A stretch of DNA of 41,305 bases, taken from NCBI GenBank assembly GCA_902779845.1, contig CACZCZ010000021.1:1-41305 (forward strand), in the 5' to 3' direction. The notes beneath the pieces are model-generated. The model had not been told where the DNA came from, ran no database searches, and saw only the letters and a program-made list of their open reading frames with translations. The position numbers and the translations under genes were made by a program. Below, piece by piece: positions 2,899 through 30,882 of this stretch; the stretch's first letter is position 1; each line of letters begins with the position of its first letter. Origin of the DNA: an uncultured Bacteroidales bacterium. Its GTDB lineage: Bacteria; Bacteroidota; Bacteroidia; Bacteroidales; Bacteroidaceae.

Positions 2899-4053
2899 AT
2901 GATTTCTATTAAGAAAGTAGAAGGACGTAGGGATTTATACGCCTTCATCCGATTCAACTATCATCTCTACAAGGGCAACGCTTATGCCGTGCCGGATTTC
3001 CTGGAGGATATGCAGGACACGTTCAACCGCAGGAAGAATGCTGCCTTTGAGTTCTGCGAGGCCGACCTCTTCCTGGCGTACAAGGACAAGAAACTGGTGG
3101 GGCGCGTGGCCGCCATCATCAACCACAAGGCTAACAAGACGTGGCAGACGAAGAATGTGCGCTTCGGATGGATTGACTTCATCGACGACATTGAGGTGCT
3201 CAAGGCGCTGCTGGACACCGTGGAGCAGTGGGGCCGCGAGCGTGGTATGAAAAAGATTGTGGGTCCGCTGGGCTTCACCGATATGGACCCCGAAGGGATG
3301 CTCATCGACGGCTTCGACCAACTCTCTACCATGAGTACCATCTATAACTACCCGTACTATCCCCGCCTCATCGAGCAACTGGGCTTCGAGAAGGAGATTG
3401 ACTGGGTGGAGCGTAAGGTGATGGTCCCCACGGCCGACGAGCATCAGGCCGATATGCAGAAGTACTTCCGTGTGGCGGAGATGAGCATGAAGCGCTACAA
3501 CCTGCACATGCGCCACTTCAAGTCGGCCAAGGAAATCCTTGCCGAGGATGGCGGCAAGTACGTGCAGAAGTGCTTCAACATCATCAACAAGGCTTATGCC
3601 GGCCTCTACGGCTACTCGGAGATGAACGAGCGCCAAATCAATCAGTATGCCACCACCTACCTGCAGTTCCTGGACATGCGCCTGTTGGCCATCGTGGAGA
3701 ACGAGGAGAACGAACCCATCGCCATGGGCGTGGGCATGGGCTCACTGTCCTATGCGCTGCAGAAGGCTCACGGCAAGCTCTTCCCCTTCGGATGGTGGCA
3801 TCTGGCCAAGGCTATCTTCTTCAAGCCGGCACCCGTCATCGACCTGCTGCTGGTGGGTGTGTTGCCCGAGTACCAGAACAAGGGTGTCAACGCTCCCCTC
3901 TTCGCACAGATTATCAAGGTGGCGCAGAAGATGGGCTTCGTGTGGGCTGAGACACACCCGCAGCTGGAGGACAACGAGAAGAGCCAGGGACAGTGGGCAC
4001 ACCTCGACTGCAGCATCCACAAGAGAAGAAGGTGCTATCACAAGGACCTGTAA
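2899..4053 (+). CDS. GNAT-like N-acyltransferase, conserved in Bacteroidetes
   Basis: The protein has 384 residues. Its C-terminal half carries an acyl-CoA-binding GNAT pattern: the strand LLLVGVLPEYQNKGVNAPLF (about residues 314-333) resembles motif A with the R/Q-x-x-G-x-G/A loop, followed by a helix and the strand MGFVWAETHP. The N-terminal half contains a second GNAT-like strand set (LFLAYKDKKLVGRVAAI). The protein ends in RRRCYHKDL. Close relatives are widespread in Bacteroidales and usually labelled only N-acetyltransferase or hypothetical; no substrate is known to me. It has its own promoter, and a GTGAAAA array separates it from parE. A role in modification of an amino compound is inferred from the fold only. 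Confidence 0.7.
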   Translation: MISIKKVEGRRDLYAFIRFNYHLYKGNAYAVPDFLEDMQDTFNRRKNAAFEFCEADLFLAYKDKKLVGRVAAIINHKANKTWQTKNVRFGWIDFIDDIEVLKALLDTVEQWGRERGMKKIVGPLGFTDMDPEGMLIDGFDQLSTMSTIYNYPYYPRLIEQLGFEKEIDWVERKVMVPTADEHQADMQKYFRVAEMSMKRYNLHMRHFKSAKEILAEDGGKYVQKCFNIINKAYAGLYGYSEMNERQINQYATTYLQFLDMRLLAIVENEENEPIAMGVGMGSLSYALQKAHGKLFPFGWWHLAKAIFFKPAPVIDLLLVGVLPEYQNKGVNAPLFAQIIKVAQKMGFVWAETHPQLEDNEKSQGQWAHLDCSIHKRRRCYHKDL

Positions 4054-4066
4054 AGGCCTGGAGGTG

Positions 4067-4122
4067 GAAAGTGAAAAATGAAAGAGTGAAAAGTGAAAAG
4101 TGAAAAGTGAAAAGTGAAAAAT
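4067..4122 (+). repeat. GTGAAAA heptamer array before parE
   Basis: The spacer between the GNAT-like stop codon and parE is a run of GTGAAAA/GTGAAAAAT/GAGTGAAAAG units. It includes five consecutive close matches to the seven-base unit. It fills almost the whole gap, leaving about 13 nt before the GTG start of parE. The same word recurs at several other gene borders in the window. Confidence 0.85.
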
Positions 4123-4135
4123 AAATCGTACTGAA

Positions 4136-6094
4136 GTGGCAGAGGAGATAGAAGAAGTCGGCGCACTTGCGCCTGTCAATTACGACGAAGATAACATCAA
4201 GCACCTGACGGATGTGGAGCATATCCGCACGCGCCCCGGAATGTATATCGGTCGCCTCGACGACGGCTCACACCCCGAGGATGGCATCTATGTGCTGTTG
4301 AAGGAGACCATCGACAACTCCATCGACGAGTTCCGGATGAATGCCGGCAAGCGCATAGAGATTGATATCGATGAACATCTGCGTGTGAGTGTTCGCGACT
4401 ACGGCCGCGGCATCCCCCAGGGTAAGATCATCGAAGCTGTGAGCCAGCTGAACACCGGCGGCAAGTATGACTCCAAGGCCTTCAAGAAGTCCGTGGGCAT
4501 GAATGGTGTCGGCATCAAGGCTGTCAACTTTCTGAGTTCCCATTTCGAGGCACGCAGCTATCGCGACGGGCAGGTGCGCAGGGTGGTCTTCGAGCGTGGC
4601 ATCCTGCAAAGCGATGTCACGGAACCCTCGCAGGACGAGAACGGCACCTATATCTTCTTTGAGCCCGACGTGGAGCTGTTCAAGAACTACTCGTTCCACG
4701 ACGACATTGTGGAGACGATGCTCCGCAACTACACCTACCTGAACTCGGGCCTCGCCATCATGTACAACGGCCGCCGCATCTTCTCGCGCAACGGCTTGGA
4801 AGACTTGCTTAACGACCGCATGACCAAGGACAGCCTCTACCCGATCATCCACCTGAAGGGCGAGGACATCGAGGTGGCCTTCACCCATGCCAACCAGTAC
4901 GGCGAGGAATACTATTCCTTCGTCAACGGCCAGCACACCATCCAGGGCGGCACCCATCAGAGCGCCTTCAAGGAACATATCGCACGCACCATCAAGGAGT
5001 TCTTCGGCAAGTATGAGTACGGCGACATCCGCACGGGTATCGTCGGTGCCATCGCTATCAATGTGGAGGAACCCATCTTCGAGAGTCAGACCAAGATCAA
5101 GCTGGGCTCTACGCAGATGGCGCCCGACGGCGTGAGCATCAACAAATACATCGGCGACTTCATCAAGCAGGAGGTCGATAACTACCTGCACATCCACACC
5201 GACGTGGCTGAGGTCATCGAGAACAAGATCAAGGAAAGCGAGCGCGAGCGCAAGGCGATGGCCGGCATCACCAAGCTGGCCCGGGAGCGTGCCAAGAAGG
5301 CCAACCTGCACAACCGCAAGCTGCGCGACTGCAAGATACATTACAACGACGTGAAGAACGACCGCAAGGAGGACTCCAGCATCTTCATCACCGAGGGTGA
5401 CAGCGCCAGCGGCAGCATCACCAAGAGCCGCGACGTGCTCACACAGGCCGTGTTCAGTCTGCGCGGTAAGCCGCTGAACTGCTACGGTCTGACGAAGAAA
5501 ATCGTCTATGAGAACGAGGAGTTCAACCTTCTGCAAGCCGCCCTCAACATCGAAGAAGGCCTCGACGGGCTGCGCTACAATAAAGTCATCGTAGCTACCG
5601 ATGCTGATGTCGATGGGATGCACATCCGTCTGCTCATGATCACCTTCTTCCTGCAGTTCTTCCCGGAACTCATCAAGAAAGGCCATGTCTATATCCTGCA
5701 GACGCCCCTCTTCCGCGTGCGCCAGCGCCGCAAACGCATCGGCAAGGAGCGCCTGAAGGCCCTTGGCGAGGAGGATACGAAGGGCGACTTCATCACGCGC
5801 TATTGCTACAGCGAGGAGGAGCGCCAGCAGAACATAGAGCTCTTAGGGCCGGAACCAGAAATCACCCGCTTCAAAGGTCTCGGTGAAATCAGCCCTGATG
5901 AGTTCCGTGGCTTCATCGGCGAGAACATCCGTCTGGAACAGGTCAGTCTCCACAAGAGCGATCAGGTGGCAGAACTTCTGGAATACTACATGGGCAAGAA
6001 CACCATGGAACGCCAGAACTTCATCATTGACAACCTTGTCATCGAAGAGGATAGGGCCGAGGAAGAAGAGGAAGAACATGAATATAGGGAATAG
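4136..6094 (+). CDS. parE: DNA topoisomerase IV subunit B (GyrB/ParE family ATPase)
   Basis: This is the ATPase subunit of a type IIA topoisomerase that decatenates daughter chromosomes. GHKL ATPase motifs are present: DNSIDEF near residue 61, GRGIP near 93, and [11 protein letters not shown] near 122. The TOPRIM domain has EGDSASGS near residue 420 and [10 protein letters not shown] near 487. The 652-residue length and the sequence after TOPRIM ([13 protein letters not shown]) fit ParE-type proteins better than GyrB. The start is GTG at 4136, immediately after a heptamer array; no better ATG exists. The order parE, coaD, S41 protease agrees with my memory of other Bacteroidales genomes. The acidic Glu-rich C terminus ends right at a palindromic repeat. 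Confidence 0.92.
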
Positions 6095-6274
6095 AAGACC
6101 CACCCCCCGACCCCTCCCGTTAGGGAGGGGGGCGCCTGCGGAGTGATAGTGAAAATAATGAATGACGAATTGTCGAAATAACGAAATAACGGAATAACGG
6201 AATGTCGAATCATCCTTCAACTACGTCGCGCCAGTCCCTCCCCTCCCTAACGGGAGGGGCCGGGGGTGGGTCTT
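6095..6274. repeat. Inverted pair of GC-rich palindromic elements between parE and coaD
   Basis: The left copy (6095-6130) and right copy (6240-6274) are reverse complements apart from one substitution and one missing G. Each consists of a palindromic core (CTCCCTAACGGGAG) plus a G-rich tail ending GGGTGGGTCTT, with tails facing outward. The 109-nt interior holds an octamer-like run (CGAAATAA, CGGAATAA) and the coaD start codon at 6202. It has the same geometry as the pair around the DUF559 gene at 19536-20024 but carries no gene, so it may be a deleted or non-autonomous form. The right copy is translated as part of CoaD. Confidence 0.85.
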
Positions 6275-6747
6275 GTGAGAGAGTCTTGCTCTTCCCCGGC
6301 TCCTTCAACCCGTTCACCCGCGGGCACGCCAATCTCGTTGAGCGTGCTCTGCAGCTCTTCGATGAAGTGGTGATTGCCGTTGGCATCAACGAGGAGAAAG
6401 CCGACAGCCATTCCGTGGAGGCGCGTGTGGCGAGCATTCAGAATATATATAAGGATAACGTGCGCGTGCGCGTAGAGAGCTACACAGGCCTGACGGCAGA
6501 TTTCGCCTGTTCCATCGGAGCCCAGGCCATCCTGCGCGGCGTGCGAACGATGAAGGATTTCGAGTATGAGATGCAGATGGCTGACGTCAACCGCCAGCTC
6601 ACAGGCATCGACACGGTGTGCCTCTTTGCTGAACCGACACTCGCTGCCATCTCCAGTTCCCTCGTCCGCGAACTCGCCCACTTCGGCAAGGATGTCAGTG
6701 AGTTCTTACCTATTAGAGATAATAAATTATTTAGAGATAATAAATGA
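6202..6747 (+). CDS. coaD: Phosphopantetheine adenylyltransferase with repeat-encoded N terminus
   Basis: CoaD transfers AMP from ATP to 4'-phosphopantetheine, the penultimate step of coenzyme A synthesis. The core starts at FPGSFNPFTRGH (nucleotidyltransferase T/HxGH motif), and the ISSSLVREL signature near the C terminus is intact. The family normally begins two to four residues before FPGSF. Here no ATG or GTG exists there, and the first usable start is the ATG at 6202, which adds about 27 residues encoded by the palindromic element (LPSLTGGAGGGS). A TTG four codons upstream of PGSF would remove part of the motif region and is less likely. The C-terminal tail RDNKLFRDNK is likewise encoded by the AAATGATAAATAAT array. 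The core is complete, so activity is expected. Confidence 0.88.
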   Translation: MSNHPSTTSRQSLPSLTGGAGGGSCERVLLFPGSFNPFTRGHANLVERALQLFDEVVIAVGINEEKADSHSVEARVASIQNIYKDNVRVRVESYTGLTADFACSIGAQAILRGVRTMKDFEYEMQMADVNRQLTGIDTVCLFAEPTLAAISSSLVRELAHFGKDVSEFLPIRDNKLFRDNK

Positions 6748-6901
6748 TAAATAATAAATGATAAATAATAAATGATAAATATTAATTCCCATAAGTCCTA
6801 TATGCCTAATATACCTAACATGCCCAATAAGCTCAATAAGGCCCATAAGCCCTATTGGCTTAAATTATCATTTATTATTTATCATTTATTATTTATCATT
6901 T
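6742..6901. repeat. 36-bp perfect inverted repeat made of a 14-nt unit
   Basis: Arms 6742-6777 and 6866-6901 are exact reverse complements, separated by 88 nt. Each arm is about 2.6 copies of the 14-nt unit AAATGATAAATAAT (two heptamers). The left arm overlaps the end of coaD and holds the ATG at 6772. The right arm encodes the hydrophobic core of the S41 protease signal peptide. In RNA the arms could form a long A/U stem across the start region. Confidence 0.9.
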
Positions 6902-10823: not shown

Positions 10824-11870
10824 ATGAAAATTCTTGTGACAGGAGCCTCGGGCTTCATCGGCAGCTTCATGATCAGCGAAGGTCTTGAGCGAGGCCACGA
10901 GATGTGGGCCGGCATGCGCCACAGCAGCAGCAAACAATACCTGACGGACGAGCGCATCCGCTTTGCCGAACTCGACTTGGGCAACCCCGAGCGGTTGCAG
11001 GAGCAACTCAAGGCCTACAAGGCAGAGATGGGTGGCACGTGGGATTATGTCATCCACGCTGCCGGTGCCACGAAATCGCTGAAGCGCGAGGGCTTCTTCC
11101 GCACGAACACCGAGGGCACAAAGAACCTTGTCAGTGCCCTGCGCGCTTGCGACATGATGCCGCAGCGCTTCGTCTTCGTGAGCTCGCTGAGCATTTTCGG
11201 GGCTATCAAAGAGGAACCTAATAAGGCCCATAAGCCCCATGAGACCCAGTACCCGGCCATCACCGCCCAGGACACGCCACGCCCCAACACCGCCTATGGC
11301 GAGAGCAAGCTGGCGGCAGAGAACTGGCTGCGCACGCAGACCGATGTGCCCTGGGTCATCCTGCGTCCCACGGGCGTCTATGGTCCGCGTGAGCGCGATT
11401 ACTTCCTGATGGCGCAGAGCATCCAGCAGCATGTGGACTTCGCCGTGGGCTACCAGCCTCAGGAAATCACCTTCGTCTATATGATGGATGTCGTGCAGGC
11501 CGCCTTCCTGGCTTGCGAGCGCCCCGAGGCCGATGTCCTGCACCACGCCTATTTCCTCTCCGATGGCAACAGCTACAACAGCCGCGCTTTCAGCGACTTG
11601 CTGCAGAAGGAGATTGGTACGCGCTTCGTGCTGCATATCAAGGCTCCCCTCTGGTTCCTGCGCCTCATCTGCACCGTCAACGGCACCGTCTGCCGCTGGA
11701 TGGGCAAGCTCACGACGCTGAACATGGACAAATATCACATCCTGGCACAGCGCAACTGGAACTGTGACATTGAGCCTGCCCGTCGCGAGTTGGGTTATGA
11801 ACCCCGTTGGAACCTCGAAGACGGCGTGCGCGAGAGTGTGAAATGGTACAAAGAAGCTGGATGGCTGTAA
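10824..11870 (+). CDS. NAD-dependent epimerase/dehydratase (extended SDR family)
   Basis: The 348-residue protein begins with the Rossmann nucleotide-binding motif TGASGFIGSF (GxxGxxG) and has the catalytic YGESK (YxxxK) near residue 156, preceded by a VSSLS serine motif. This defines an extended short-chain dehydrogenase, often acting on nucleotide sugars or steroid-like substrates; the exact substrate cannot be told. The stretch EEPNKAHKPHETQ (about residues 130-142) between the Ser and Tyr motifs looks like an insertion, and its codons contain an 18-mer shared with the S41 leader. The gene has its own promoter, is divergent from rnr, and is followed by a GTGAAAA array and the PAP2 gene. 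Confidence 0.85.
   Translation: MKILVTGASGFIGSFMISEGLERGHEMWAGMRHSSSKQYLTDERIRFAELDLGNPERLQEQLKAYKAEMGGTWDYVIHAAGATKSLKREGFFRTNTEGTKNLVSALRACDMMPQRFVFVSSLSIFGAIKEEPNKAHKPHETQYPAITAQDTPRPNTAYGESKLAAENWLRTQTDVPWVILRPTGVYGPRERDYFLMAQSIQQHVDFAVGYQPQEITFVYMMDVVQAAFLACERPEADVLHHAYFLSDGNSYNSRAFSDLLQKEIGTRFVLHIKAPLWFLRLICTVNGTVCRWMGKLTTLNMDKYHILAQRNWNCDIEPARRELGYEPRWNLEDGVRESVKWYKEAGWL
11220..11237 (+). repeat. 18-mer nonamer-array fragment inside the epimerase gene
   Basis: AATAAGGCCCATAAGCCC is identical to 6835-6852 and lies in the same codon phase in both genes, giving NKAHKP in two unrelated proteins. Confidence 0.85.
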
Positions 11871-11875
11871 GAGGG

Positions 11876-11966
11876 GAAAGTGAAAAATGAAAAGTGAAAA
11901 ATGAAAAGTGAAAAATGAAAAGTGAAAAGTGAATGAGTGAAAAGTTAAGAGTTAAAAGTGAAAAAT
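11876..11966 (+). repeat. GTGAAAA array between epimerase and PAP2 genes
   Basis: About 90 nt are built of GTGAAAA, ATGAAAA and a few degenerate words (GAGTTAAAA). It fills the whole intergenic space. The first in-frame GTG of the next gene (11958) is itself part of the array. Confidence 0.85.
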
Positions 11967-13004
11967 AAGGTGATGTTTTTTTTGCCTGTTGAGAAGGTGG
12001 CGGCGGTCTATTGTGCACTGACCTGCGTGCTGATGCTCATCATGATGCCGCGACTGGTAGATCCCGTCGGCATGGCGGTGATGCGCGTCGAGTGGCTCGC
12101 CATGACCTTGTTCCTTGCCTTCGCCCAGCGCTTCACGGCAAGATTTTTCGCCTCCCCTGACAGGGAGAGGGTGGGAGTGGGCCTTCACTCATCCATCTTC
12201 ACCTTCATCCGTGTTTCAGCGCAGATGGCGTGGCTGGCGGTGTGGTACCCCGACACCTACGAGTTCAACCGCTCGTTCAACAACCTGGACCATCTCTTCG
12301 CTGCCGCCGACCAGTCGCTGTTTGGCTGCCAACCCTCCTTGGAGTTCTCTCAGGCCTTGCCCAGTGCCTTTTGGAGCGAGGCTTTCAATCTGGGCTACTG
12401 GAGCTATTTCCCCATGATAGGTCTCCTACTCGTCACCATCTTCATCCTCGAATCCCGCAAACCTTCCACCATAAACCCTCAACCCTCAACTCTCAACCGT
12501 CCCCCTTGGGGGACCACAGGGGGCTCCTCCCCCTTCCTCTCCGTCGCTGCCACCATCCTCGCGGCTTTCTTCCTCTATTATGTCATTTACATCTTCCTGC
12601 CGGTGGTAGGTCCTCAGTTCTACTTCCAAGCTGTGGGCATCGCTGAGATTCAGCAGGGTCATTTTCCCGTCCTCGGCACCTATTTCAGCAGCCATACCGA
12701 GATGTTGCCGCCTCCGGGCTGGGCCGATGGCCTCTTCAGTCGCTTGGTGGCGATGGCTCATGAGGCGGGCGAGCGTCCCACAGCCGCTTTCCCCAGCAGC
12801 CACATTGGTATCTCCACGCTGTTGCTGCTCTTGGCACGCCGCCATGCGCCCAAGCTCCTCTTCGTGCTCGTACCCTTGTGGACGCTGCTCTGCTGCGCCA
12901 CGGTCTATATCCAGGCCCACTACGTTGTGGATGCCATCGCAGGCCTCATCAGCGCCCCCCTCGCCCTGTGGGCTGCCTCGCGCTTGGTGAAGAGACTTCA
13001 TTAG
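11958..13004 (+). CDS. PAP2-superfamily membrane phosphatase/phosphotransferase
   Basis: This is a 348-residue polytopic membrane protein with a PAP2 active site: TAAFPSSHIG (motif 2, His) and QAHYVVDAIAG (motif 3, His/Asp) near the C terminus. The N-terminal half has four hydrophobic helices. Related Bacteroidetes proteins are described as PAP2 or inositolphosphotransferase-like and may act in phospholipid or glycolipid synthesis. Starts available are GTG 11958, GTG 11970 or ATG 11973; the first two fall in or next to a repeat array, so the ATG may be the real one. Two hydrophilic segments look inserted: SPDRERVGVGL (about residues 65-75) and the stretch from KPSTINPQPSTLN to GGSSPFL (about 170-194). 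Both are repeat-encoded and both lie between membrane helices. Confidence 0.8.
   Translation: MKNKVMFFLPVEKVAAVYCALTCVLMLIMMPRLVDPVGMAVMRVEWLAMTLFLAFAQRFTARFFASPDRERVGVGLHSSIFTFIRVSAQMAWLAVWYPDTYEFNRSFNNLDHLFAAADQSLFGCQPSLEFSQALPSAFWSEAFNLGYWSYFPMIGLLLVTIFILESRKPSTINPQPSTLNRPPWGTTGGSSPFLSVAATILAAFFLYYVIYIFLPVVGPQFYFQAVGIAEIQQGHFPVLGTYFSSHTEMLPPPGWADGLFSRLVAMAHEAGERPTAAFPSSHIGISTLLLLLARRHAPKLLFVLVPLWTLLCCATVYIQAHYVVDAIAGLISAPLALWAASRLVKRLH
12151..12185 (+). repeat. Palindromic GC-rich element in frame in the PAP2 gene, copy 1
   Basis: A core CTCCCCTGACAGGGAG is followed by a G-rich tail ending GTGGGCCTT. The order of core and tail and the ending match the element family. It encodes a hydrophilic segment after the second membrane helix. 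Confidence 0.75.
12471..12535 (+). repeat. CTCAACC array plus palindromic element in frame in the PAP2 gene, copy 2
   Basis: Three to four CTCAACC/CTCAACT heptamers (12475-12498) run directly into a palindrome CCCCCTTGGGGG with a second G-run (12499-12535). Together they encode a Pro/Ser/Gly-rich loop between membrane helices. The same CTCAACC words make up the speA-aroK spacer. Confidence 0.75.
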
Positions 13005-18052: not shown

Positions 18053-18550
18053 TTATGAGAGCCCGAAGTGGTTAAGCTTCATGTATCTTTCTTTGATGCG
18101 GTTGCGGGCGCGGTGGAGATATACGCGGACTTGGTCCTCGGAGAGGTGGAGGTGCTGTGAGATCTCGCGATAACTCATGCCCTCGATGTCGCGCAGACGC
18201 ACGAGGTCGTCCATGGGTGGGGGCAGCTCGGCGATGAGGCGCTGGAGGAGGCTGAGGCCATCGGCGGCCTGCGGCGATGCTACGAGGTTGGGGTGTTGCC
18301 ACAGCGGGCTGCCCTCTTGGGGCAGCGGGTCTGCATGTGTCTTGCGCAGCTTATCCAGCGCCTGGTTCTTGGTCATCTGCGAGAGCCATGCCAGCGGGCG
18401 CTCTATGGTGTGCCATTCCTCGCGGCGCTCCCATGCCTTCAGCATGACATCCTGTACGACGTCCTCGGCCTCTGCGCTGTCTCCTAACAGGCTGAGGGCA
18501 AGGCGATAGAGGCGGTCGCGATGGGATAGTATGTCGGTGCGGAAGTCCAA
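18053..18550 (-). CDS. ECF-type RNA polymerase sigma factor
   Basis: The 165-residue protein has sigma region 2 (YRLALSLLGDSAEAEDVVQD followed by VMLKAWERR) and region 4 with its helix-turn-helix (EGMSYREISQHLHLSEDQVR, then VYLHRARNRIKE). It lacks regions 1 and 3, as expected for group 4 (ECF) factors. The start is TTG at 18550; no in-frame ATG lies close. The stop faces the three-gene outer-membrane operon. A minus-strand anti-sigma-like gene lies beyond that operon at 13110-13568. It may control the operon or a wider regulon, which is inference from position only. Confidence 0.88.
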   Translation of the reverse strand: MDFRTDILSHRDRLYRLALSLLGDSAEAEDVVQDVMLKAWERREEWHTIERPLAWLSQMTKNQALDKLRKTHADPLPQEGSPLWQHPNLVASPQAADGLSLLQRLIAELPPPMDDLVRLRDIEGMSYREISQHLHLSEDQVRVYLHRARNRIKERYMKLNHFGLS

Positions 18551-18560
18551 ATTTGTGATT

Positions 18561-18746
18561 AAAAGAATGAAAAGTGAAAAATGAAAGAATGAAAAATAAA
18601 AATATGATTTGCTTTTAAGTTTTTTGGGGACGATTCAAGCTGCAAAGCCGTGCGCAAGAGTTCAAGGGTTCAAGGTACTTTTTATTTTTCACTTTTCACT
18701 CTTTCATTTTTCACTCTTTCATTTTTCACTCTTTTACTTTTCACTT
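18561..18746. repeat. Oppositely oriented GTGAAAA arrays between argB and the sigma gene
   Basis: A GTGAAAA/ATGAAAG array in plus orientation (18561-18602) is mirrored by a TTTTCAC array (18679-18746). About 75 nt lie between, including GTTCAAGG words. The arms are largely complementary and could form an imperfect stem. The right arm contains the last codons (SSEK) and the stop of argB. Confidence 0.75.
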
Positions 18747-19603
18747 GAAATAACTGTGCCGCCTTGGAGGTTGGAGATGTGGGTGATGCGGACGCTGGTG
18801 ACGCCGGCGTGGATGGCGGCGAAGGCATTCTCGAGTTTGGGGATCATGCCGCCCGAGATGGTGCCGTCGGCGACGAGCTGCCGGAAAGAGGTCTCGGTGA
18901 TGTGGGGGATGAGGCTGTCGGGTTCGGCGGGGTCGCGCATGACGCCGGGGAGCTCGAAGCAGTAGGTCAGAGTGACATCGCGCAGCAACTTCTCTCCCTC
19001 ATGGGAGGGGGTGGGGCTTGCCAACGCGACGGCAACGGTCTGTGCCATGGTGTCGGCATTGATGTTGAGCATGTGGCCTTGGCCGTCGTGTGTCAGGGGT
19101 GCTATGATGGGTGTGATGCCGAGTTGCAGCAGTCGCAGGAGCTGTGCGCCGTCGGCGCTATCGACGTCGCCCACGAAGCCGAAGTCGATGCCCTCGGGGG
19201 TGATGGGGCGGCGATGGGCGCGGACAAGGTTGAGGTCGGCACCGGTGAGGCCGAGGGCGTTGATGCCACGGGCCTGCAGCTGTGCCACGATGTTCTTGTT
19301 GACGAGACCGCCATAGACCATGGTCACCACCTTCAGCATCTCGGCATCGGTGATGCGGCGACCGCCCACCATCTGGCTCTCGATGCCCAGCTGTGCTGCC
19401 AGCTTCGTGGCGGAGCGTCCGCCACCGTGCACGAGCACCTTCGGGCCTTCAATTTTGCCGAATTCATCGAGGAGTATGGCCAACTGCTCCGGGTCTTCAA
19501 CGACGGCGCCGCCGACCTTGATAATAGAAAGACCGGACTCTCCCCCCGCCCTCCCTGTTAGGGAGGGAGCAGTATGTATTTGAGCAGATGAAAACTTATT
19601 CAT
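18734..19603 (-). CDS. argB: Acetylglutamate kinase carrying two repeat-encoded segments
   Basis: ArgB phosphorylates N-acetylglutamate in arginine biosynthesis. The amino-acid kinase core is complete: IIKVGG, then VLVHGGGRSATKLAAQLG, LTGADLN, NINADTMAQ and GGMIPKLENA. At 289 residues it is about 30 longer than Bacteroides relatives as I remember them. The excess is in two places. The N-terminal extension MNKFSSAQIHTAPSLTGRAG (plus GES) is encoded by the right half of a DUF559-bearing element. An internal block SPTPSHEGEK (about residues 195-204) sits before the strand DVTLTYCFE and is encoded by a solo palindrome. The start ATG overlaps the DUF559 stop (ATGA). The C-terminal SSEK is encoded by a heptamer array. 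The intact core suggests a working enzyme. Confidence 0.92.
   Translation of the reverse strand: MNKFSSAQIHTAPSLTGRAGGESGLSIIKVGGAVVEDPEQLAILLDEFGKIEGPKVLVHGGGRSATKLAAQLGIESQMVGGRRITDAEMLKVVTMVYGGLVNKNIVAQLQARGINALGLTGADLNLVRAHRRPITPEGIDFGFVGDVDSADGAQLLRLLQLGITPIIAPLTHDGQGHMLNINADTMAQTVAVALASPTPSHEGEKLLRDVTLTYCFELPGVMRDPAEPDSLIPHITETSFRQLVADGTISGGMIPKLENAFAAIHAGVTSVRITHISNLQGGTVISSEK
18991..19019. repeat. Solo palindromic element in frame inside argB
   Basis: The core CTCCCTCATGGGAG is followed by the G-rich tail GGGGTGGGGCTT, the same order as the other family members. Its removal would close a ten-residue gap relative to the family. Confidence 0.8.
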
Positions 19604-20024
19604 TGGAAATATGATTCAATTTGCGAAATGACATTATCTGTATCGTATAAGACTTCTTCATTTGTAAAACGAATTACATGAAAGCCCATTTTTTCTAATG
19701 CTTGTTCTCGAATGGCATCATCTTCTTGTTGTTGTCGTTCTGCATGATATGCGCCATCTACTTCTATGACTAACCCTTCTCTTTGAGAAACAAAATCAAC
19801 AATATAATCACCTATCACATGTTGCCTGTTAAATCTTGTTCCAACATCTAATGTGCGTAAATGTTCCCATAGGACGGACTCTGCAAGTGTCGGATTTCGC
19901 CGATTCTCCCTCGCAAATTCTTTCAGAAGAGCATACCTGTCAGGAGAGGCCGTACGATAATCCATGTTGACAATTCTTGAAAGGTGACCGCTCCCTCCCT
20001 AACAGGGAGGGCGGGGGGAGAGTC
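19536..20024. mobile_element. Candidate element: 35-bp perfect inverted repeats around a DUF559 nuclease gene
   Basis: The left repeat (19536-19570) and right repeat (19990-20024) are exact reverse complements over 35 bp. Each is a palindromic core (CTCCCTAACAGGGAG) with an outward-facing tail ending GGGGGGAGAGTC. Between them lies a conspicuously AT-rich segment containing only the DUF559 gene. The left repeat is translated as the N terminus of ArgB; the right repeat ends 3 nt from the speA stop codon. No flanking target duplication is obvious. The unit looks like an insertion into an ancestral speA-argB junction. A mobile nature is inferred from structure and composition; no transposase is present. 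Confidence 0.7.
19600..19965 (-). CDS. DUF559 (Vsr-like PD-(D/E)XK) endonuclease-domain protein
   Basis: The 121-residue protein has the DUF559 pattern: an N-terminal helix ARENRRNPTLAESVLWEHLR, then RFNRQHVIGDYIVDFV, the strand GLVIEVDGAYH and RFTNEEVLYD. Asp57, Glu68 and Asp70 are candidate metal ligands of a PD-(D/E)XK/Vsr-type nuclease fold, with Gln48 and His74 also conserved in the family. Base composition is far more AT-rich than all neighbours, suggesting separate origin. Its stop codon overlaps the argB start (ATGA). It lies inside a pair of 35-bp perfect inverted repeats. A role in moving or maintaining that repeat family is hypothesised; nuclease activity itself is inferred from the fold. 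Confidence 0.85.
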   Translation of the reverse strand: MDYRTASPDRYALLKEFARENRRNPTLAESVLWEHLRTLDVGTRFNRQHVIGDYIVDFVSQREGLVIEVDGAYHAERQQQEDDAIREQALEKMGFHVIRFTNEEVLYDTDNVISQIESYFQ

Positions 20025-20027
20025 TTT

Positions 20028-21920
20028 TTACTCCAGATACGTATATCCGTACAGCCCAGCCCTGTAGTTGCTGATGAACTCTTTTCCCTCGGCTTCGGTG
20101 ATCTTGCCGTCCTTGACGGCGCGGCTGACCCATATCTCCAGGCGGCGCACAAGCTTCTTGGGGTCGTACTGCACGTACTCGAGCACGTCGGCAACGGTCT
20201 CACCATCGATGATCTGTTCGAGCTCGTAGCCCTCCTTGGACACGGAGATGTGCACGGCGTTGGTGTCGCCGAAGAGGTTGTGCATGTTGCCGAGGATTTC
20301 CTGGTAGGCGCCTACGAGGAAGACACCGATGTAGTAGTGTTCACCGCTCTTGAGGGGGTGCAGGGGGATGTAGTTGGTCTGGTGGCCGCCGTTGACGTAG
20401 GTGGTGATTTTGCCGTCGGAGTCGCAGGTGATGTCCTGTAGCGTGGCGCTGCGTGTGGGCTGCTCGGCGAGGCGGTCGATGGGCATGATGGGGAAGAGCT
20501 GGTCGAGGGCCCAGGAGTCGGGCATCGACTGGAAGAGCGAGAAGTTGCAGAAGTACTTGTCGGCCATCTGCTTGTCCAGGGCGCGCAGCTCGTCGGGGGC
20601 GTGCTTCTGGTGGTGTGCCAGCTCGGCAACCTCGTGGCTGATGGCCCAGTAGATGGACTCGATTTGTGCGCGTGTCTTCAGGTCGATGATACCGTGGCGG
20701 AACAGGTCGAGGGCTTCCTCGCGGATGTCCTCGGCGTCGTGCCAGTCCTCGAGCAGTGAGCGGCTGGAGAGTTTGTCCCAGATCTCGGTGAGGTCGTGAA
20801 CGAGCTTGTGGTCGCCCTCGCCGGGCTCGAAGTCCTCGGGCATCTGCGGCGCGCAGACGCTCTCCATGACGTCCACGACGAGGACGCTGTGGTGGGCGGT
20901 CAGCGAGCGGCCGCCCTCGGTGATGATGTTGGGGTGGGGGATGCCGTTCTTGTTGGCAGCTTCCACGAGGTTATAGACGCAGTCGTTGACATACTCCTGG
21001 ATGGAGTAGTTGACACTGGATTCGCTGTTGCTGGAGCGTGTGCCGTCGTAATCTACGCCGAGGCCGCCGCCGCAGTCGATGAACTCGATGCCGAAGCCCA
21101 TGGCGTGGAGCTGCACGTAGAACTGTGCGGCCTCGCGCAGGGCGGTGCTGATGCGACGTATCTTGGTGATCTGGCTGCCGATGTGGAAATGCAGGAGCTT
21201 GAGGCAGTCGCGCAGCCCCATTTCATCGAGCATCTGCAGGGCCATGAGCAGCTCGGAGCTGTTGAGCCCGAACTTCGAGGCATCGCCGCCGCTCTCGCTC
21301 CACTTGCCGCTGCCGTTGGCAGCCAGCTTGATGCGGATGCCCAGGTTGGGGCGCACGCCCAGCCGCTGCGCCGTCTCGGCGATGATCTGCAGTTCGGGCA
21401 GTTTCTCGATGACGAGGAACACGCGCTTGCCCATCTTCTGTGCCAGCAGTGCCAGCTCGATGAAGTTCTGGTCCTTGTGGCCGTTGCAGATGATGAGGCT
21501 GTCGCTGTCCATGTTGGTAGCCAGCACAGCGTGGAGCTCGGGCTTGGAGCCGGCTTCCAGTCCCAGGTTGTAGCGCTTGCCGTGGCTGATGATTTCCTCC
21601 ACGACAGGGCGCATCTGGTTCACCTTCACAGGGAAGATGATGAAATGCTCGGCCTGGTAGTCGTACTCCTTGGCAGCCTTGCGGAAGCACTCGTCGGTCT
21701 TCTCGATGCGGTTGTCAAGGATGTCCGGAAAGCGTAAGAGGACGGGGGCCGTGACGTGGCGCGTAGCCAGTTCATCGACCACCTCCTTGAGATCGACTTG
21801 TACTCCGTTCTTCTTGGGGGTCACATAGACGTGTCCCTTCTCGTTGATACCGAAATAGTTGACGCCCCACCCACGGATGTTGTAGAGCTCCTCGGAATCT
21901 TCAATGCGCCACTTCTTCAT
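20028..21920 (-). CDS. speA: Biosynthetic arginine decarboxylase
   Basis: This PLP-dependent enzyme converts arginine to agmatine for polyamine synthesis. The 630-residue length and fold-III barrel motifs fit SpeA. The PLP lysine lies in FPVKVNQMRPVVEEI (near residue 97). HFHIGSQ and DCGGGLGVDYDGT bind cofactor phosphate, and the specificity region near VVDVMESVCAP is intact. The start MKKWRIEDSEELYNIRGWGV matches the usual beginning. It precedes the DUF559-bearing element and argB, pairing arginine use with arginine synthesis. A heptamer array separates it from aroK upstream. Confidence 0.95.
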   Translation of the reverse strand: MKKWRIEDSEELYNIRGWGVNYFGINEKGHVYVTPKKNGVQVDLKEVVDELATRHVTAPVLLRFPDILDNRIEKTDECFRKAAKEYDYQAEHFIIFPVKVNQMRPVVEEIISHGKRYNLGLEAGSKPELHAVLATNMDSDSLIICNGHKDQNFIELALLAQKMGKRVFLVIEKLPELQIIAETAQRLGVRPNLGIRIKLAANGSGKWSESGGDASKFGLNSSELLMALQMLDEMGLRDCLKLLHFHIGSQITKIRRISTALREAAQFYVQLHAMGFGIEFIDCGGGLGVDYDGTRSSNSESSVNYSIQEYVNDCVYNLVEAANKNGIPHPNIITEGGRSLTAHHSVLVVDVMESVCAPQMPEDFEPGEGDHKLVHDLTEIWDKLSSRSLLEDWHDAEDIREEALDLFRHGIIDLKTRAQIESIYWAISHEVAELAHHQKHAPDELRALDKQMADKYFCNFSLFQSMPDSWALDQLFPIMPIDRLAEQPTRSATLQDITCDSDGKITTYVNGGHQTNYIPLHPLKSGEHYYIGVFLVGAYQEILGNMHNLFGDTNAVHISVSKEGYELEQIIDGETVADVLEYVQYDPKKLVRRLEIWVSRAVKDGKITEAEGKEFISNYRAGLYGYTYLE

Positions 21921-21923
21921 ATA

Positions 21924-22002
<79 letters not shown>

Positions 22003-22023
22003 CATCCCCCCCTCTGCCTTCCG

Positions 22024-22551
22024 CTACACTCCCACCATTTCCCGGATGATTCTCACACACTCATCAATCTTGGTGAAGGTGTCAAGCACGGAGATATCTA
22101 TGGTGTATTTGGCTTGGGAGTAGAAGGGCTCGCGGGCTTGCAGGGACTCCTGGATGTAGGTCTCCAGTTCCTCGGGTGTCTTGCCCTCGATGAGGGGTCG
22201 TTTGCCCTTGCCCATCTTCAGATGTTGGGCCAGCACCTCGGGGTCGGCTTTCAGATAGACGGTGTCGGCGAGAGAGTTCATGTACTCCATGTTGTCATAG
22301 AAGCAGGGGGTGCCGCCGCCGCAGCTGACGACGACATTCTCGAACTCGGCCACCTCGTGCAGCATGCGGCGTTCCAAGTCGCGGAAGCCCTCTTCGCCGC
22401 GTTCGGCAAAGATCTCGGGGACGCTGCGGTGGTAGCGCATCGTGATGTACCAGTCGAGGTCGTAGAAGGTGAGCCCCAGGTCGGCGGCCAGAGCCTTGCC
22501 GACAGTGGTCTTGCCGGCGCCCATGTATCCGATGAGAATAACGCGGACCAT
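22024..22551 (-). CDS. aroK: Shikimate kinase
   Basis: AroK phosphorylates shikimate in chorismate synthesis. The P-loop GYMGAGKTTVG is at residues 8-18, followed by the substrate-binding DLDWYI and SCGGGTP motifs and the lid region MGKGKRPLI. The 175-residue length is typical. It lies 24 nt downstream of topA and is probably cotranscribed with it, with speA following after a repeat array. All key residues are visible. Confidence 0.94.
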   Translation of the reverse strand: MVRVILIGYMGAGKTTVGKALAADLGLTFYDLDWYITMRYHRSVPEIFAERGEEGFRDLERRMLHEVAEFENVVVSCGGGTPCFYDNMEYMNSLADTVYLKADPEVLAQHLKMGKGKRPLIEGKTPEELETYIQESLQAREPFYSQAKYTIDISVLDTFTKIDECVRIIREMVGV

Positions 22552-25861: not shown

Positions 25862-26039
25862 AAATATGAAATATGAAATATCAAATATGAAATATGAAAT
25901 ATAAAATATAAAGGCCCCTTAAACCCTTAAACTCCTTAACCCTTAAACTCCTTAAACTTCTTAACCCTTAACCCTTAACCCTTAACCCTTAACCCTTAAC
26001 CCTTAACCCTTAACCCTTAACCATAACCCCTTAACCATA
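25862..26039 (+). repeat. AATATGA and TTAACCC heptamer arrays between ribF and the CPBP gene
   Basis: Seven AATATGA-like units (25862-25912) are followed by mixed CCTTAAA words. Then come eight perfect consecutive TTAACCC heptamers (25961-26016) and degenerate copies up to 26039. The whole intergenic region of about 200 nt is tandem repeat. The TTAACCC run resembles eukaryotic telomere repeats only by chance. Confidence 0.9.
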
Positions 26040-26056
26040 AACCGCACGAAAGTGCC

Positions 26057-29174: not shown

Positions 29175-29180
29175 TTATAA

Positions 29181-29278
29181 GTGAAGAGTGAAAGAATGAA
29201 AAATGAAAAATAGGAGTTACCTTCTCTTGCACCATGGAAATATTTATTTTTCACTTTTCACTTTTTCATTTTTCATTT
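29181..29278. repeat. Oppositely oriented GTGAAAA arrays between lipoprotein gene and hflX
   Basis: A GTGAAGA/GTGAAAG/ATGAAAA array (29181-29211) faces a TTTTCAC array (29245-29278), separated by about 33 nt. The right arm contains the stop codon of the upstream lipoprotein gene. The arms are partly complementary. Confidence 0.75.
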
Positions 29279-30157: not shown

Positions 30158-30178
30158 GAACAAATTATATAATCAATC

Positions 30179-30217
30179 TTTCACTTTTCACTTTTCATTT
30201 TTCATTTTTCACTCTTC
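30179..30217 (-). repeat. GTGAAAA array after rsmI
   Basis: TTTTCAC/TTTTCAT words fill the region after rsmI and overlap its last codons (SEK and stop). Confidence 0.8.
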
Positions 30218-30882
30218 ATCTCCCCACCGCCCACAATGATCACGAACTCCCCTCGGGGTTCATGCGCTGTGAAATGGGCGAGGGCTTCGGTGAGTGTGCC
30301 GCGCACGACTTCTTCGTGTACCTTGGAGATCTCGCGGCAGACAGCCACAGGCCGCTCGGCGCCAAAGACTTCGATGAACTGCTGCAGGGCTTTCACCACG
30401 CGGTGCGGTGACTCATAGAACACCATCGTCCGCGTCTCACTGGCCAACTGCTGCAGACGTGTCTGCCGTCCTTTCTTCTGGGGCAGGAAGCCCTCGAAGC
30501 AGAACTTGTCGCAGGGCAGACCCGACGCCACCAATGCCGGCACAAAAGCCGTGGCTCCAGGCAGGCAGCTGACCTCCACTCCTGCGCGGATGGCTTCGCG
30601 TGCCACCAAGAACCCCGGATCGCTGATGCCTGGTGTCCCGGCATCGCTCACCACGGCCACCGTTTCGCCGGCCAGCAGGCGCTGCACGATGCCTGCCACC
30701 GTCTGGTGCTCGTTGAACTTATGGTAAGAGAGCATGGGACGGTGGATCTCGAAATGCTTCAGCAGAAGACCGCTTGTGCGCGTGTCCTCTGCAAGAATCA
30801 AGTCGGCCTCTTTGAGCACACGGAGAGCACGCATAGTGATGTCCTCCAAATTGCCCACGGGCGTAGGTACGAGGTATAACAC
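30202..30882 (-). CDS. rsmI: 16S rRNA (cytidine-1402-2'-O)-methyltransferase
   Basis: RsmI methylates the 2'-O of C1402 in 16S rRNA, tuning decoding at the P site. The start LYLVPTPVGNLEDITMRAL and AEDTRTSGLLL are the family signature, followed by SDAGTPGISDPGF (SAM binding), LPGATAFVPALVASGLP and YESPHRV. The 226-residue length is normal. The start is GTG at 30882. A perfect -7 box ends only 5 nt upstream, so the mRNA may be leaderless. The C-terminal MKSEK is encoded by a GTGAAAA array rather than by family sequence. Confidence 0.94.
   Translation of the reverse strand: MLYLVPTPVGNLEDITMRALRVLKEADLILAEDTRTSGLLLKHFEIHRPMLSYHKFNEHQTVAGIVQRLLAGETVAVVSDAGTPGISDPGFLVAREAIRAGVEVSCLPGATAFVPALVASGLPCDKFCFEGFLPQKKGRQTRLQQLASETRTMVFYESPHRVVKALQQFIEVFGAERPVAVCREISKVHEEVVRGTLTEALAHFTAHEPRGEFVIIVGGGEMKSEK

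Follow-up and report, generated by a model that had tools for sequence, protein, structure and literature searches.

The question raised by this locus is what a small nuclease gene of the DUF559 family, enclosed by exact inverted repeats, is doing at the junction of speA and argB in a 41,305-nucleotide stretch of DNA (hereafter the window; contig CACZCZ010000021.1 of assembly GCA_902779845.1) from an uncultured Bacteroidales bacterium. A sequence-only reading had proposed a mobile unit in which a nuclease, not a transposase, travels with palindromic ends, with a logic like that of repetitive extragenic palindromes (REP) and their REP-associated tyrosine transposases (RAYT) but an unrelated enzyme. 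Comparison with other genomes shows the anatomy of the unit, its presence at unrelated loci, unoccupied junctions, gene-less derivatives (many outward-tagged inverted pairs among them), a dose relation between gene and palindromes, in-frame copies, and conserved acidic and histidine positions in a protein of predicted Vsr/EDxHD fold, and these observations support both parts of that proposal. The favoured explanation, to which a probability of about two in three is assigned, is that 19536-20024 is a mobile unit whose arms are intrastrand triplex motifs (TMs), with DUF559 as the dedicated mobiliser of its TM family, in a RAYT-like role and acting both in cis and in trans. That the repeat is an already described motif, and that units lie in frame in essential genes, goes beyond the sequence-only reading. 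The unit and its surroundings are composed as follows.

19536..19570, + strand: left arm, one TM, with a C-rich tag (GACTCTCCCCCCG) facing outward and a palindrome (CCCTCCCTGTTAGGGAGGG); exact reverse complement of the right arm
19600..19965, - strand: DUF559 nuclease gene, 121 amino acids, from the open reading frame (ORF) list; PF04480 at E 1.9e-33; AlphaFold2 model with a mean predicted local distance difference test (pLDDT) score of 88.6
19990..20024, - strand: right arm, an inverted copy of the left arm, with outward-facing tag
18734..19603, - strand: argB, from the ORF list; its frame extends through the left arm, and its first listed in-frame start, 19603, lies within the unit
20028..21920, - strand: speA; 3 bases separate its stop codon from the end of the right arm
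About 6096..6273, no strand assigned: gene-less unit; an inverted pair of tagged palindromes of AGACCCACCCC type, each with its tag on the outside and with 105 bases between the palindromes

The basic anatomy was borne out. The arms are exact reverse complements over 35 bp, and their match continues at 97% identity to 19573 and 19987; the single ORF between them is the DUF559 gene, which stands between speA and argB (both names are our reading of the window translations). argB probably uses the start at 19603, inside the unit. Allowing up to 3 mismatches, the core CTCCCTAACRGGGAGG has six matches in the window against 0.56 expected, a number reached by 0 of 100 shuffles; the six are the two arms on both strands plus the pair at 6112 and 6243. 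The idea that such palindromes are dispersed through the window was upheld only in part: there is one more clear unit, the gene-less pair at about 6096-6273, and there are two weaker palindrome-like matches at 12152 and 26618. Over the whole source genome, 199 palindromes were found versus 5 in a backward-read control.

The source genome (G000; 2.92 Mb in 47 contigs, 86% complete) has three full-length DUF559 matches and one fragment (C7). All three full-length genes are enclosed by inverted repeats of two sequence types (CCTCACCCCCCAACCCCCTCTCC... at L001; AGACTCTCCCCCCGCCCTCCC... at L002 and in the window), and the fragment likewise lies within an outward-tagged pair. Tags read GACTCTCCCC, CCTCACCCC, AGACCCACCCC and similar, and the tag and palindrome type of the window's left arm recur at L002, L049, L052 and L057. 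The two arms of one unit are more alike than arms from different units: the observed mean was reached by 10 of 10,000 permutations among 14 units and by 97 of 10,000 within the window's subfamily (7 units). Over all non-orthologous pairs, similarity of the ends has a small correlation with protein identity (rho 0.15, reached in 18 of 2000 permutations; two pairs at identity 1.00 are alignment artefacts).

Close copies of the unit lie at unrelated places. Copies of the window gene with 81-87% protein identity occur at L002, L057, L049, L052 and L066; L002 and L057 occupy one common locus, and the copies thus lie at four other loci. Alignment of these close copies holds from GACTCTCC end to GACTCTCC end and collapses outside, except between L002 and L057; at L066 one end is out of register, further out. 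At the speA-argB junction itself, the sequence-only reading expected empty sites in close strains, and would have been contradicted by a repeat-less DUF559 gene there in all relatives. The junction was followed in the best 29 of 131 genomes of the genus with a speA match, other than the source, and tblastn (E<=1e-3) found DUF559 at speA in none of these 29. argB was readable after speA in 18 of them and not next door in 11, in some because of contig ends. As expected, 11 of the 18 readable junctions measure -1 to 57 bases and have no TM-type repeat, although L091 among them has another hairpin. A further junction of 87 bases also lacks a TM-type repeat, one is unrelated and 977 bases long, and five (L086, L087, L090, L095 and L102) contain repeats or remnants and no intact gene, that of L086 with a tail resembling, by eye, the 3' end of a DUF559 gene. 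In a further genome (L067), the junction is occupied by a different DUF559 gene (45% identity) with different ends. A separate observation concerns an acyl-CoA-dehydrogenase-like locus (the gene name is our reading), where the flanks of L043 are closest to L007, L009 and L028 (78-87%) and its gene is closest to L041, L050 and L051 (nonsynonymous divergence, dN, of 0.19-0.20 versus at least 0.28 for others), which looks like the exchange of one unit for another at the same site.

The association of DUF559 with inverted arms was scored by the best ungapped match, in inverted orientation, of one flank to the other, values of at least 13 being counted. In the genus, such arms are present at 64 of 71 DUF559 loci, compared with 2 of 135 neighbouring stretches of the same loci used as controls; the flanks of 2 of the 73 loci were too short to be scored. 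Named loci from many phyla give 42 of 75, and their controls 1 of 138 (5 of 80 dropped). This is the repeated enclosure of DUF559 that had been predicted. Similarly, arms are present at 19 of 29 loci in the order of Dyella (4 of 58 controls; 1 of 30 dropped), 17 of 25 in Cyanobacteria (1 of 50; 5 of 30 dropped) and 15 of 66 on viral contigs (0 of 127; 14 of 80 left out). Tagged palindromes lie within 350 bp of solo DUF559 genes at 52 of 54 loci in the genus, 25 of 42 in the named set and 19 of 19 in the Dyella order, compared with 10 of 102, 0 of 79 and 3 of 38 control windows, respectively. A hybrid-flank control reached 13 in 28 of 146 cases in the genus (maximum 292) and 6 of 150 in the named set; because orthologous loci occur in opposite orientation, it is spoiled in the genus set, and the neighbour control was used instead. 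An artefact of GC-rich sequence was considered and rejected, as shuffles, neighbour windows and backward-read controls are all low. In addition, on a plasmid of Photobacterium sp. GJ3 (L082, 1898-3163), nine same-direction tagged palindromes follow the DUF559 gene, mostly about 145-195 bases apart.

When the window and its relatives are set against the published table, the arms follow the pattern of an intrastrand triplex motif, with pyrimidine arm, loop, purine arm and G-rich third block. Judged by this pattern, they are the TM (TMECO, PIT) of Holder et al. 2015 (PMC4666352). The available text of that paper gives 23 copies in E. coli and more than 260 genomes with the motif, and reports that no mobility genes were found near the E. 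coli TMs. It also ties TMs to genome instability, suggests a link to replication, and cites earlier work in which the motif had neither promoter nor terminator activity. The DUF559 gene of E. coli is ycjD, and 3365 of 5426 complete genomes contain a match to it. In strain MG1655, the TM from 1351205 (no. 9 of PMC4666352) lies about 167 bp beyond the end of ycjD, and a degenerate TM overlaps that end. One strain without ycjD has efflux genes after sapF, consistent with the available text of PMC12817139, and is not informative as an empty site. In a literature search of titles and beginnings of abstracts, which took in few subscription papers and could have missed a report, none of the papers listed links DUF559 to these repeats or to mobility. 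On the 5' side of ycjD in MG1655 (L256, about 3250-3330), a position where one would look for a TM is taken by a long hairpin, CACCTCATTCTGACAA ... TTGTCAGAATGAGGTG.

Many units have no gene. In a 441-kb sample of the source genome (400 kb plus the window), 42 palindromes were found, 41 of them tagged, against 0 in the backward-read control. Fourteen adjacent pairs are tagged outward. Two of them hold DUF559 and are spaced by 425 and 470 bases; the other 12, at spacings of 37-206 bases, contain no intact gene, and one of these retains a DUF559 fragment. DUF559 is the only gene found within an outward-tagged pair in this sample; six more close pairs, in other orientations, enclose other sequence. 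From sequence comparison, single TMs also seem to be mobile; at the acyl-CoA-dehydrogenase-like locus, some genomes have a TM ahead of the start codon, others have one in frame within the gene, and L011 has both. At L001 and L027, a gene that we read as asnS contains the right arm in frame.

Numbers of palindromes also follow numbers of genes. Palindromes of the form CCCTCYN{2,10}RGAGGG were counted against DUF559 matches in 121 genomes of the genus, with kinship ignored here and in the two group counts below; the source genome entered with 3 DUF559 genes, its fragment excluded. The medians are 10, 30, 49, 81, 131 and 122 palindromes for 0, 1, 2, 3, 4 and at least 5 DUF559 genes (Spearman 0.69), and 4-9 in the backward control. 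Among 151 genomes of the Dyella order, at least 5 CCCTCTCC palindromes occur in 24 of 39 with DUF559 (matches below 1e-20, a cut of our own) versus 2 of 112 without. The repeats are not, then, distributed independently of DUF559 across genomes, an outcome that the sequence-only reading had named as incompatible with it. In Cyanobacteria, where the motif searched is a mirror repeat and the count therefore has no valid backward control, at least 5 copies of one pattern are present in 31 of 68 genomes with DUF559 versus 16 of 77 without, a weak relation. RAYT was rejected as the mobiliser of TMs: Y1 transposases of RAYT type (E below 1e-15, our own cut) are found in 26 of 139 genomes, TM number has no relation to them (p 0.56), and the source genome has no convincing Y1 match.

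The enzyme is predicted to be a nuclease of the Vsr/EDxHD fold (the name EDxHD being taken from the available text of PMC3943268), and probably a catalytic one. Thirteen columns are invariant across 71 DUF559 sequences, including E29, D57, E68, D70 and H74, whose assignment to the letters of EDxHD is our own reading. The nearest solved structures are 3hrl (NGO0050, uncharacterised) and 3r3p, the catalytic domain of the homing endonuclease I-Bth0305I, the latter with a structural TM-score of 0.78 by target length, a profile E of 1e-5 and a fold E of 9e-5. A close match to Vsr itself was not found: Foldseek to 1vsr is weak (E 0.09), and the Pfam scan, in which DUF559, MTES_1575 and DUF2726 are above cut-off, contains no Vsr family. 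According to the available text of a 2005 survey (PMC1189080), YcjD belongs to the PD-(D/E)XK superfamily, near Vsr. Of 51 pairs, 9 gave a ratio of nonsynonymous to synonymous divergence (dN/dS), with values of 0.02-0.14 and in some cases dS above 1.5, most pairs being saturated; the pairs with a ratio fit purifying selection on DUF559. Additionally, 3hrl is a DUF559 protein of Neisseria gonorrhoeae, a species whose DUF559 gene is followed by three TM-like palindromes at a spacing of 281 bases (L079, 2097-2682).

Some units lie inside host genes. Eight of the 26 named loci with long frames were scanned, and several such frames proved to be units inside host genes and not fusions at protein ends. 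Leucyl-tRNA synthetase (LeuRS) carries such an insert in Gillisia marina, G. mitskevichiae, Cellulophaga baltica and a Bacteroidales metagenome-assembled genome (MAG), and at another site in Ilyomonas limi. Other hosts are a class I synthetase read as isoleucyl-tRNA synthetase (Winogradskyella), a MetH-like protein (a Cytophagales MAG) and a type ISP restriction enzyme (an Anaerolineae MAG), all with the unit in frame. The G. marina insert falls between positions matching 236 and 243 of the Thermus thermophilus LeuRS chain 1h3n. In the best 30 of 118 Flavobacteriaceae genomes with a LeuRS match, 16 loci have a 23-residue spacer, 10 are longer by 2-15 residues, 1 is unreadable and 3, including the query genome G. 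mitskevichiae, hold the whole unit in frame, its ends translated to peptides such as LPSGEGQGG. An intein was rejected for the LeuRS copies, since Pfam (E<=1e-5) shows DUF559 and host domains and no Hint splicing domain. The LeuRS loop that takes DUF559 units has another short insert, VIASETKQS, at L272 and L276.

Because the gene apparently spreads and increases in number along with the hairpins, DUF559 is a candidate for the agent that spreads TM hairpins. In the mechanism proposed, TM DNA would fold when single-stranded, as a hairpin or a triplex, and the nuclease would recognise palindrome plus tag, probably on this folded DNA, and nick beside the palindrome. Repair or template switching might then copy the unit to a new place. 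The nuclease would thus move its own unit in cis and gene-less single or paired TMs in trans, and fold-back of one arm on the other could keep the arms of a unit alike.

Several observations weigh against this mobiliser reading. No strain-level jump was seen, and no target duplication is visible by eye in the six copies. In the named set, neither an inverted repeat nor a TM is present at 11 of the 42 loci with a solo DUF559 gene. Of 10 loci in plasmid-collection records, 4 reach a score of 13 and 6 fall below it; among these six, TM-like motifs stand beside the gene in E. coli, Azospirillum, Neisseria and Photobacterium, and none is found beside the DUF559 gene of the Sinorhizobium locus. Tags, as judged by eye, face mainly outward in the genus and mainly inward in the Dyella order, and any mechanism must accommodate both. 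At the alx-sstT pair of TMs in E. coli, the shorter junction of one strain looks like an internal deletion, not an insertion, and a second strain has unrelated sequence there. The dose correlation in the genus takes no account of kinship, and composition or size contributes to it, because a weak correlation with DUF559 number (0.31) is seen in the backward control too. In the Dyella order, 15 of the 39 genomes with DUF559 have fewer than 5 of the searched palindromes. Finally, G018 and G027 have 189 and 95 palindromes and no DUF559 match (they are 80 and 84% complete), which perhaps reflects missing sequence, a lost gene or another agent.

These last two genomes would suit an explanation in which TMs are spread by errors of replication or recombination, or by another enzyme, while DUF559 genes are carried along between them, as would the replication-linked TM instability suggested in the available text of Holder et al. 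(PMC4666352). It is nevertheless improbable, given that DUF559 is the sole gene inside the outward-tagged pairs of the 441-kb sample, that the association recurs across several phyla and viral contigs, and that TM numbers track DUF559 and not Y1/RAYT, the other gene family compared. Another point against the mobiliser reading is that the nearest characterised relative of the enzyme is the homing endonuclease I-Bth0305I. A free-standing homing endonuclease would cut the unoccupied site and recombination would bring the unit in, so that TMs would be borders of a cassette and not the substrate. The reuse of places, with two DUF559 lineages at speA-argB and one LeuRS loop occupied in several genera, agrees with this, as does L043, with the flanks of one clade and the gene of another. 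However, homing into homologous sites does not give the same gene and ends at unrelated loci, and it accounts neither for the numbers of gene-less TMs nor for the dose relation. Homing is unlikely as the whole explanation, yet for some of what the units do (L043 and the LeuRS loop) it competes seriously, and homing and TM mobilisation could both be true. A role in host maintenance, in which DUF559 trims or resolves folded TMs, TM-rich genomes keep more of it and selection sets its position between TMs, fits purifying selection and the dose relation equally well, and the link of TMs to instability in the available text of PMC4666352 is in its favour. It is very improbable all the same, as a maintenance gene needs neither a place between inverted TMs at many loci nor gene-less decay nor a location in LeuRS. 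GC-rich stem-loops near gene ends might suggest that the arms terminate or attenuate transcription on either side of an ordinary gene; this was rejected as hardly credible, because the motif is tagged, matched, dispersed in about 200 copies and also present within reading frames, and earlier work cited in the available text of PMC4666352 found no promoter or terminator activity.

With DUF559 as the mobiliser, the unit can be compared with known systems. The likeness to REP, REPIN and RAYT (TnpA-REP) is considerable, taking the REP facts from the available text of PMC3733652: short tagged palindromes occur singly and as inverted pairs, with copy numbers that can reach the hundreds, and one gene is flanked by inverted copies of a high-copy palindrome, whose numbers here depend on that gene. 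In contrast, the enzyme has a Vsr/EDxHD fold instead of HUH/Y1, the Pfam scan of the window unit's protein contains no Y1, and the tag is C-rich and not GTAG (or CGTC). With the TMs of PMC4666352, the arms share the motif; the available text reports no associated enzyme, whereas here DUF559 lies between or beside the motifs. I-Bth0305I has the same nuclease fold (3r3p), but DUF559 is a bare 121-residue domain between palindromic ends, with copies of one subfamily at unrelated loci and not confined to homologous sites, and no intron was found at the window locus. Like miniature inverted-repeat transposable elements (MITEs) and DDE insertion sequences, the units have terminal inverted repeats and non-autonomous derivatives; they differ in having no DDE gene, ends that are themselves palindromes, and no target duplication seen. 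Rickettsia palindromic elements (RPE) are palindromic inserts kept in frame in protein genes, whereas some of the inserts described here carry a whole nuclease gene.

To our knowledge, and within the scope of the literature search above, no mobile unit has such a nuclease as its sole protein; on a definition that takes any combination of palindrome and gene as REP-like, the DUF559 unit would fall within that group. On balance, we lean towards regarding DUF559 units as a new class of mobile element in Bacteroidota, Pseudomonadota, Cyanobacteriota, Chloroflexota and viral contigs, in which a lone nuclease would replicate TMs in cis and in trans, and which can be open in frame and settle in essential genes such as leuS. 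The nuclease would then be the missing agent behind dispersed TMs, including those of E. coli, where it is ycjD. TMs are widespread and linked to instability, and the agent behind them has so far not been known; if the mobiliser reading is true, DUF559 supplies that agent together with a testable mechanism, a family of unknown function gains a role, and E. coli K-12, with ycjD and 23 TMs, becomes an experimental system. It would also amount to a REP/RAYT-like lifestyle reached a second time by unrelated means, based on a nuclease fold and not on a HUH transposase. In-frame inserts in LeuRS and other essential proteins, which otherwise resemble domain fusions, would be explained by mobile units.

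The window contains further repeats of other kinds. A-rich repeats of heptad type (GTGAAAA/ATGAAAA and complement) occur at 4050-4138, 11844-11982, 18545-18750, 29179-29275 and 30170-30226. Runs of AACCCTCAACTCTCAACC and CCCTTAA-like repeats, with a telomere-like look, occupy 21923-22024 and 25915-26043. Finally, a perfect 37-nt AT-rich inverted repeat of AAATGATAAATAAT units lies at 6742-6778 and 6865-6901, its copies 86 bases apart.

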